From the NCBI GenBank assembly GCA_030066985.1, contig JASJAN010000041.1, forward strand, positions 1-48,762: 48,762 bases of DNA, given 5' to 3'. The translations under genes and the position numbers were made by a program. Every line of letters begins with the position of its first letter. Position 1 is the first letter of the stretch. The notes beneath the pieces are model-generated. The model was not told where the DNA came from and made no database searches. It saw only the letters and a list, made by a program, of their open reading frames with translations. This DNA is from Desulfobacterales bacterium. GTDB taxonomy: Bacteria > Desulfobacterota > Desulfobacteria > Desulfobacterales > JAHEIW01. Shown here in pieces: positions 44,570 through 47,287 of the stretch.

Positions 44570-44902
44570 ATGGACACCTATTACAAGCCGGAAGATCTTC
44601 CCAAGTTTGAAGACATCGGCAAAGAAGCGCCTGAGTTGGCGCGCAAATTTTTTGACTATTACAACGCTGTTTTCGCTGATGGAGAGCTAACCGAACGCGA
44701 AAAAGCGCTGATTGCCCTGGCCGTCGCCCATACCGTCCAGTGCCCCTATTGCATCGATGCCTACACCCGGGCCTGCCTTGAGAAAGGATCTAATCTGGCT
44801 GAGATGACCGAAGCGGTCCATGTCGTCACCGCGATCCGGGGTGGCGCTTCCCTGGTACATGGTGTTCAGATGCGCAATATTGCAGACAAATTATCAATGT
44901 AG
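44570..44902 (+). CDS. Carboxymuconolactone-decarboxylase/AhpD-like protein (arsenosugar-associated)
   Basis: The 110-residue all-helical protein has the AhpD-type CxxC in AVAHTVQCPYCIDAYTRACLEKG, with the upstream EREKALIALAVA. Such proteins reduce peroxides through the CxxC pair. A subfamily is found beside ArsS genes and is annotated as an arsenosugar-biosynthesis-associated peroxidase-like protein; this one lies 10 bases before arsS. GAGGAG precedes the ATG. Its exact role in the pathway is not known. Confidence 0.85.
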   Translation: MDTYYKPEDLPKFEDIGKEAPELARKFFDYYNAVFADGELTEREKALIALAVAHTVQCPYCIDAYTRACLEKGSNLAEMTEAVHVVTAIRGGASLVHGVQMRNIADKLSM

Positions 44903-44912
44903 CAGAGGCCCA

Positions 44913-45923
44913 ATGCTCGATAAAGCCCACATAGAAGACATCGACGCATCCTCGCAGGTCACTGCTGCGGATATCGTGCCCTTTAAGGCCACACTGGCCC
45001 GGCACGATCTTAGGCTGGTGCGCCGGACGACCGCAGCATTACAGATCAATGTGGGGCTGGTGTGCAACCAGCTCTGCCGTCACTGTCATCTGAATGCCGG
45101 GCCGGGCCGCACAGAAAATATGGACGCGCAGACGCTAAAAGCGATCGTCGCATACGCGCGGCGATGCCGATTTGAAGCCATTGATATCACCGGTGGGGCG
45201 CCGGAACTCAATCCGTTGCTGCCAGATTTAATTCGACAACTGTCACCTTTAACGCCGCGAATCATGCTGCGCTCTAATCTATCGGCCCTCAGTGAACAGA
45301 TGAATCGCCTGTTGAAGGTGCTGATCGCGCACCGGGTCGTCATCGTGGCATCCTTTCCATCGTTAAATCTGTCCCAGACAGATGCCCAGCGCGGAGAAGG
45401 CATTTTCGAAAAAAGCATTGCCGTACTGAAAGCGCTCAACGCTTTGGGCTACGGACGTGCTGCATCCGGTCTGGAGTTAAACCTGGTCTCCAATCCCACC
45501 GGCGCTTATATGCCGCCCGGCCAGGAGCAAATCGAAAAACGGTATCATCAGATCCTGGAACGAAAATGGGGGTTGAGGTTTAACCACCTGTTTAATTTCG
45601 CCAATGTCCCCCTGGGGCGGTTCAAACAGTGGTTGATCCAAACAGGCAACTATGATGCTTACCTCAACAAGCTGGTTGCCCAATTTAATCCCTGTGCGAT
45701 CGAAGGACTGATGTGCCGCAGTCAGGTCTCGGTTTCCTGGGATGGCTATTTGTATGACTGCGACTTCAACCTGGCACGGGGCCTTTTTACGCGCGGCAAG
45801 AAAATCCATGTTTCCGAAATGGCAGGGCCGCCTGAAGTGGGCACCCCCATTTTTACTGCTGATCATTGCTACACATGTGCAGCCGGCTCGGGCTTTACAT
45901 GAGGCGGCACCATCACCACCTGA
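44913..45923 (+). CDS. arsS: Arsenosugar biosynthesis radical SAM (seleno)protein ArsS
   Basis: The start is the ATG at 44913 with GAGG upstream. The radical SAM CxxxCxxC is GLVCNQLCRHCHLNAGPGR, followed by DITGGAPELNP. The C-terminal part has CRSQVSVSWDGYLYDCDFN and ends HCYTCAAGSGFT, then UGA (45900-45902). ArsS proteins end with C-x-x-C-x-A-G-x-G-S-S-C-x-G, where the last Cys is replaced by Sec in some members. Reading through the UGA gives GFT-Sec-GGTITT and then a stop at 45921-45923, so the UGA falls exactly at the C/U position. A hairpin follows in the range expected of a bacterial SECIS. With Sec the protein has 336 residues. The gene is in an operon with the CMD-like and glycosyltransferase genes. 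Confidence 0.85.
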
Positions 45924-45934
45924 GTTCAGGTAGG
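45903..45934 (+). promoter_or_regulatory. Candidate SECIS hairpin of arsS
   Basis: Downstream of the UGA, ACCTG (45918-45922) pairs with CAGGT (45927-45931) around AGTT. The stem can be extended by CC (45916-45917) with GG (45933-45934) around a bulged A. The loop lies about 21 bases after the UGA and contains GU. Position and size fit bacterial SECIS elements, but the fold is small and needs testing. The right arm is next to the ribosome binding site of the next gene. Confidence 0.4.
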
Positions 45935-45943
45935 AGAAACCCC

Positions 45944-47287
45944 ATGTCCGCAGCGCGGCCTGAACGCTTGATTGTCTTCACTCGGTTTCCCGAGCCCGGA
46001 AAAACCAAAACCCGTTTAATCCCAGCCCTGGGCGCACGGGGGGCCGCTCGTCTGCAGCGTCAGATGACCGAGCGCATCATCACTACCGCAATAGCGCTAA
46101 AGGGTCAAAATGGGCTAAGCATCGAAGTCCGCCATGAAGGTGGCGATGCGGCTTTGATGCAAGATTGGTTGGGGTCGAATCTGGTTTACCGTCCGCAGGG
46201 CAAGGGGCATTTGGGCCAGCGCATGCAAGAGGCTTTCACCTCGGCCTTCGAGGAAAATACGGCGGCAGTGGTTATTGTCGGCAGTGACATACCAGGGATT
46301 TCAACTCAAATTATTCGGCAGGCCTTTGAAGCGTTGCACCAAAATGACCTGGTCATAGGCCCGGCCTCGGATGGGGGCTATTATCTGGTGGGCCTTAGCC
46401 ACTCTCTGGCGACGATTGCCTATGGTCAACTGTTTGAAGGAATTGACTGGGGCAGCGACAGGGTTTTGGCTCAGACCCTGCAGATTGCCAGCGGCTTGAG
46501 ACTGACGTTAACTCAACTGGAACGTTTGCCAGATGTGGATCGACCTGCAGATCTGTCTGTCTGGCATCAGACCCAAAAGACTGCGGCGCGGTCGACAAAA
46601 CTGTCGATCATCATCCCGACACTAAATGAGGCCGATACCATCGAGCGCACCCTTTCCCAACTCAAAGAAATCAATAACCTGGAAGTGATTGTCGTTGACG
46701 GCGGCAGCAATGATAAGACCGCTGACCTGGCCAGATTACAGGGTGCCAACGTGATCAAAACCCAGCCAGGCAAAGCCAACCAGATGAACAGCGGGGCTGC
46801 TGCGGCAACCGGAGAGGTGCTGATCTTTTTACACGCCGACACCCGCATGCCCGCAGGCTTTAATCATCAAATCGTCGCGGCCCTCGCTCAAAAAGGGGTG
46901 GTGGCCGGCGCCTTCCGACTGGCCATTGACTCACCCGCTGCGGGTATTCGCTTCATTGAACGCGCGGCTGATTTGCGCTCGCGCTTTTTTCAGCTGCCCT
47001 ATGGCGATCAGGCCCTTTTCATGAACAAGGCAGTCTTTGAAACCATCGGCGGTTTTGCCGACCTGCCGATCATGGAGGATTTCATTTTGGTTCGCCGCTT
47101 GCGGCGTAAGGGCAAAATCATCATCTTGCCCACTGCCGTCACCACTTCACCCCGCCGCTGGCAACATTTTGGAATTCTGAAAACATGGCTGGTCAATCAG
47201 ATGATCATTATCGCCTACTATCTGGGGATATCGCCTGAACGACTGGCCCGCTGGTATCGCCGTGAAGCCGGTAAAGGCAGAAACTAA
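45944..47287 (+). CDS. Two-domain arsenosugar-type glycosyltransferase fusion
   Basis: The start is the ATG at 45944 with AGGAG upstream. The 447-residue protein joins two enzymes that are usually separate. Residues 1-205 match the DUF2064 / TIGR04282-type glycosyltransferase: LIVFTRFPEPGKTKTRLIPALG, VVIVGSDIPGIS, ASDGGYYLVGL. Residues about 215-447 match the GT2-type TIGR04283 family: LSIIIPTLNEADTIERTL, VIVVDGGSNDKTADLA, LIFLHADTRMP, FFQLPYGDQALFMNKAVFETIGGF. Both families are found beside ArsS genes and are linked to arsenosugar formation. The fusion supports a direct hand-over between the two steps. Confidence 0.9.
   Translation: MSAARPERLIVFTRFPEPGKTKTRLIPALGARGAARLQRQMTERIITTAIALKGQNGLSIEVRHEGGDAALMQDWLGSNLVYRPQGKGHLGQRMQEAFTSAFEENTAAVVIVGSDIPGISTQIIRQAFEALHQNDLVIGPASDGGYYLVGLSHSLATIAYGQLFEGIDWGSDRVLAQTLQIASGLRLTLTQLERLPDVDRPADLSVWHQTQKTAARSTKLSIIIPTLNEADTIERTLSQLKEINNLEVIVVDGGSNDKTADLARLQGANVIKTQPGKANQMNSGAAAATGEVLIFLHADTRMPAGFNHQIVAALAQKGVVAGAFRLAIDSPAAGIRFIERAADLRSRFFQLPYGDQALFMNKAVFETIGGFADLPIMEDFILVRRLRRKGKIIILPTAVTTSPRRWQHFGILKTWLVNQMIIIAYYLGISPERLARWYRREAGKGRN

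Follow-up and report, generated by a model that had tools for sequence, protein, structure and literature searches.

The stretch of DNA analysed here, called the window below, comprises 48,762 nucleotides of a Desulfobacterales bacterium contig and carries an arsS gene whose product matches the family TIGR04167 with 368.7 bits, above the curated cut-off of 300 (Table 1). From ATG 44913 the frame reads ...HCYTCAAGSGFT-UGA-GGTITT-UGA, and the ORF obtained with translation table 11 stops at 45902, as the sequence-only reading had expected of a standard annotation, which would cut the protein at the first UGA. The radical SAM CxxxCxxC motif is CNQLCRHC, its three Cys being invariant in 13 aligned genes out of the 56 that carry UGA at the same position, and the C-terminal tail, CYTCAAGSGFT-U-GG, has the CxxC...G-x-G-x-x-[C/U] pattern of ArsS. 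The neighbouring families TIGR04169, TIGR04282 and TIGR04283 are all arsenosugar-associated by NCBI naming. The name of ArsS itself also comes from NCBI curation, and the formation of arsenosugar is a predicted activity. An ArsM above its cut-off is encoded elsewhere in the same genome, and its gene is without TGA.

Table 1. Features at the arsS locus of the window (positions count from the first nucleotide of the window).
Feature	Position	Strand	Description
TIGR04169 AhpD/peroxidase-like protein, arsenosugar biosynthesis-associated	44570..44902	+	193.3 bits, cut-off 120
arsS	44913..45923	+	predicted radical SAM selenoprotein, arsenosugar biosynthesis; 336 residues with Sec as residue 330; TIGR04167 match and TGA-read-through translation
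UGA codon, almost certainly read as Sec	45900..45902	+	UGA or Cys in aligned relatives; Sec machinery in the genome
Putative SECIS hairpin, ACCUG-AGUU-CAGGU	45918..45931	+	5-bp stem, 4-nt loop with G second; fold, conservation and covariation
UGA, very likely the true stop	45921..45923	+	in frame, within the SECIS stem/loop; same place in 48 of 56 UGA forms
Shine-Dalgarno AGGAG of the next gene	45932..45936	+	directly 3' of the hairpin; L069 and L089 have AGGA here too
Fused transferases, TIGR04282 and TIGR04283	45944..47287	+	208.2 bits (cut-off 134) and 274.1 bits (cut-off 182)

ArsS is already known as a selenoprotein family, and the window gene is a well-supported further member, in its Sec form and with a SECIS of its own. 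Excerpts of PMC13188914 and PMC9312934 place TIGR04167 among predicted selenoprotein families, with the example AAR34688.1 and the motif GxxU, and the NCBI name of the family includes "(seleno)protein". A literature search for the accession found it in these two papers and not elsewhere, searches of the same literature collection for ArsS together with selenoprotein and radical SAM, and with arsenosugar biosynthesis, yielded no paper and one paper, respectively, and the matches listed for ArsS chemistry made no mention of radical SAM. The window gene shares with the family the motif (G-F-T-U) and the arsenosugar-associated neighbours TIGR04169, TIGR04282 and TIGR04283, and shows no new biochemical feature; it differs in having its two transferases joined in one protein, which begins 44 nt past the Sec codon. 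Apart from the tight packing of the hairpin, the true stop and the start of the next gene, nothing about it is out of the ordinary. The AlphaFold model of ArsS has a mean pLDDT of 75.2 and falls below 50 at residues 282-299, in the Sec tail; the model is unsure in this tail, and we therefore make no structural statement on Sec. A search of PDB sequences with the ArsS profile returned six distinct sequences, with matches confined to profile positions 7-144.

A search of the class, covering 291 genomes, placed ArsS above the cut-off in 77 of them, with 81 rows in all. Three genes that end before the C-terminus (G120, G198 and G241) were left out, and the 78 ArsS genes examined are those of the window and 77 further loci. 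At the Sec position, 56 genes have UGA (UGA forms) and 21 have Cys (Cys forms; 13 TGC and 8 TGT), and one, L096, runs off its contig and was left out of the residue and hairpin counts; L045 and L097 were placed by their own motifs. The proposal of an ArsS with an in-frame UGA at the Sec position is backed by the family match, by the codon at 45900-45902 and by the alignment with ArsS proteins that had been suggested as a check, in which exactly this position holds Cys or UGA in 77 of the 78 genes, the remaining one being truncated. The second codon after the Sec UGA encodes Gly in all 56 UGA forms (columns 7-8 invariant). A TIGR04169 relative lies upstream of arsS in 49 of the 56 UGA-form and 14 of the 21 Cys-form loci, counted within reach of the stretches examined and with the window included.

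In a second set, made of the best 80 loci of a scan of genome contigs, 11 loci have UGA, 68 have Cys and one gene is truncated; the script gave 10 and 67, respectively, L141 and L210 being added by visual inspection. The titles of the 11 UGA loci (L133-L143) name Deltaproteobacteria, Desulfobacterales, Desulfarculaceae, Desulfarculus or Syntrophaceae. One of them, the deltaproteobacterial arsS of L141 (3280-3460), keeps the UGA and the SECIS hairpin; its frame is damaged ahead of the UGA, and the CxxC stretch that should directly precede this codon in the tail is missing, perhaps by a deletion or an assembly error.

On the tree, 54 UGA forms make up a group free of Cys forms, and the 21 Cys forms are joined by two UGA forms, L024 and L045. 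The UGA and Cys labels follow two old branches, with two changes needed, so the 56 UGA rows are not independent events. Genome G186 has three ArsS genes (L024, L072 and L093), all with UGA, and its L024 lies on the mostly-Cys branch with a hairpin type of its own.

The genome of the window (5.07 Mb in 81 contigs, 97.8% complete) was searched for the Sec machinery, whose absence would have spoken against Sec. All parts were found: tRNA-Sec scored 75.2 bits (gathering score 47), with ARAGORN in agreement and the anticodon tca, and SelA (614.1 bits), SelB (376.4 bits) and SelD (355.8 bits, with its own in-frame TGA) all scored above their cut-offs. The host cell is able to make selenoproteins, as tRNA-Sec, SelA, SelB and SelD are all encoded. 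The co-occurrence of SelB was also considered as a discriminator of UGA and Cys forms and fails as such: SelB is above the cut-off in 50 of 53 UGA-form genomes and also in 17 of 21 Cys-form genomes, one genome having both forms.

The bacterial SECIS model, as given in an excerpt of PMC13188914, has a loop of 3-9 bases, a stem of at least 4 bp, a G among the first two loop bases, a spacing of 16-37 and an energy of at most -7.5 kcal/mol; an excerpt of PMC1088965 agrees on a small loop with a G. The hairpin behind UGA 45900 has the loop AGUU, a 5-bp stem and a spacing of 20, and reaches -9.0 kcal/mol with a predicted lower stem that holds a bulged A and extends it to about 45914-45937 (the perfect stem alone has -5.1). 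It departs from the model in that the gene's stop falls within it, which leaves the 3' half of the hairpin outside the coding region. We take 45918-45931 as a putative SelB-binding, Sec-inserting element. The sequence-only reading had seen a hairpin that fits a bacterial SECIS 21 bases downstream; position, pairing and covariation favour that claim, and the distance is corrected here, as the stem begins 15 nt and the loop 20 nt after the Sec UGA.

Across the genes examined, hairpins that fit the SECIS model with an energy of at most -5.0 occur in 53 of the 56 UGA forms (13.4 in shuffles) versus 6 of the 21 Cys forms (4.1 in shuffles), and with the published limit of -7.5 in 34 UGA forms (6.2) versus 2 Cys forms (2.3); they are thus far commoner than chance in UGA forms and close to chance in Cys forms. 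The published limit is missed by 22 UGA forms, including L089 (-6.4) and L066 (-5.5), and L069 passes it (-8.2); L068, L073 and L074 fail even at -5.0. L045 (UGA) and L040 (TGC), which are sisters in one genus with 83% identity over 294 residues, differ in this respect, a hairpin fitting the model at -5.0 being present in L045 but not in L040. In a simpler scan, 50 of the 56 UGA forms have the loop of their best hairpin starting 21-24 bases downstream of the U of the UGA, and p 0.05 is reached individually by 25 UGA forms and one Cys form; the window, with p 0.14, misses it. The fold of the window alone has no excess stability over shuffles (z -0.19; 84 of 200 shuffles do as well), the minimum-energy fold of 61 nt from the close relative L069 lacks the hairpin, and an Rfam scan of the window gave no match at the gathering score.

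We judge the hairpin to be real because it is conserved and covaries across relatives, and not because of its fold stability. Covariation was assessed in UGA forms only, in 47 of the 56 that were selected for the inner UG/CA. At +18 the two bases form a standard pair in 41 of these 47 rows, with a shuffled mean of 25.9 and a highest value of 33 in 1000 shuffles; the pair occurs as AU, UA, GC and GU, and the count falls to 10 to 29 when the 3' side is slid by 1 or 2 bases. This concerns one pair, as the two pairs beside the inner UG/CA vary too little and the pairs beyond +18 stay within the highest shuffle. L024, L052, L062 and L098 have quite different stems in the same layout.

The family, the position of the codon, the Sec machinery and a conserved hairpin in which one pair covaries were all established here by computation. 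From these we infer that UGA 45900 is almost certainly read as selenocysteine, which makes arsS a bacterial selenoprotein gene of ordinary type within the ArsS family (probability about 0.95). SelB bound to the hairpin at 45918-45931 would bring Sec-tRNA-Sec, and UGA 45900 would be decoded as Sec; the ribosome would then open the hairpin, add GGTITT and terminate at UGA 45921, within what had been the hairpin. As with the Cys of related enzymes, the Sec would be the reactive residue that ends the Cys-rich tail of this radical SAM enzyme. The gene end would accordingly move to 45921-45923 from the 45900-45902 of the table-11 translation. Were UGA 45900 a plain stop, the protein would end in ...GSGFT, and the Gly-rich codons and the hairpin behind it would be there by chance. 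Such a stop would agree with the table-11 ORF end and with the ordinary stability of the hairpin taken alone, but it is very improbable, given the invariant Gly at the second codon past the UGA, the alignment of the UGA with the Cys of relatives, and the presence of the Sec machinery together with a conserved hairpin.

The second UGA is very likely a genuine stop. In 48 of the 56 UGA forms the stop is a UGA seven codons past the Sec codon; the other UGA forms have their stop elsewhere, three of them with UAG and one with UAA, and the stops of the 21 Cys forms are UGA (10), UAG (6) and UAA (5). A stop UGA that recurs inside the SECIS, 21 bases past the Sec UGA, makes for a notably compact arrangement. 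Since the two codons are alike and the second has GTTCAGG behind it in many rows, both might be decoded as Sec to give a longer tail, an idea to which we give hardly any credence: a SECIS-like hairpin follows the second UGA in 4 of 47 rows (counted without a shuffle control), and the extension past it varies from 3 to 71 codons. Moreover, the 3' arm lies one base further on in 12 of the 47 rows, where the arm is kept and the reading frame is shifted, so the conservation past the stop is that of RNA and not of protein.

The gene of the fused transferases follows the second UGA closely, and its ATG is placed 44 nt downstream of the U of the Sec codon in the window as well as in L069 and L089. 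In these, which are all three same-genus genomes with a complete gene end (G198 is truncated), AGGA stands directly after the hairpin. The ribosome binding site had been read as overlapping the 3' side of the hairpin; the direct adjacency holds, and the overlap does not extend beyond the lower stem predicted in the window, where GG 45933-45934 pairs with CC 45916-45917 and AGGAG stays outside the perfect stem. Of the four sequences folded (window, L089, L069 and L083), the window alone has its Shine-Dalgarno paired with the SECIS stem, L089 pairing it elsewhere, and we rejected this pairing as a conserved feature. The same-family genome G267 (L066) has no transferase within 2015 bases from the Sec codon, and the same-family genome G221 has no ArsS above the cut-off. 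Elsewhere, with starts projected from the alignment, UGA forms have the transferase at +74 (L056) and +89 (L065), and Cys forms, with no Sec codon to serve, have it at +41 (L042) or overlapping at +16 (L025, L029, L030 and L034). In the UGA forms L044, L047, L072, L083 and L095 an ORF of another kind follows, with a possible start at 47-64, and genera other than the window's may also place a gene start closely behind the SECIS.

The 44-nt spacing is most likely close operon packing, and some Cys forms pack the transferase as tightly. The sequence-only reading had suggested that Sec insertion and glycosyltransferase translation might influence each other, a suggestion that draws on the layout. 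This layout would also allow a selenium switch, in which SelB on the SECIS and a ribosome stopped at 45900 shut or uncouple the next start; upon Sec insertion, the ribosome would run to 45921 and open the hairpin, termination would take place about 21 nt instead of 44 nt ahead of the start, and reinitiation at 45944 would make the transferase in step with selenium-loaded ArsS. The abutting Shine-Dalgarno and the ATG at +44 in all three same-genus genomes are consistent with such gating of the transferase by the arsS SECIS in this genus, as is L083 from outside the family, where the possible start of the ORF is at +47 and a purine-rich site at +34. There is also a precedent for a SECIS in translational control: Thanbichler and Boeck (2002) reportedly described a SECIS-like element that controls selAB translation in E. 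coli, with no Sec inserted there. That hairpin, too, is said to bind SelB and to lie near a ribosome binding site, whereas the window hairpin would serve Sec insertion first and its control of the next gene is putative. Against the switch stand the Cys forms with a tightly packed transferase, the lack of a transferase within 2015 bases from the Sec codon in G267, and the lower stem holding the Shine-Dalgarno, which is predicted in the window but not in L089, L069 or L083, and we consider the gating unlikely. If it were true, two steps of one arsenic pathway would be tied to the selenium supply via one hairpin. A literature search on SECIS elements beside a ribosome binding site or in translational control did not find this layout in titles or abstract openings, in a coverage that is thin for subscription journals and does not prove its absence. 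The layout of hairpin and Shine-Dalgarno provides a small and clean test case for coupling between Sec insertion and the translation of a neighbouring gene.

The genome likely holds at least two further selenoprotein genes, selD and an ArsM-like gene. The selD gene (G000:C48:37903-38817, minus strand; L018) has its in-frame TGA near the N-terminus, in TCG-U-AAK, followed by a hairpin recognised by eye. The ArsM-like methyltransferase gene (G000:C4:212259-212942; L213), which is below the family cut-off, reads WTG-UGA-IAGG, followed by a long inverted repeat, also recognised by eye.
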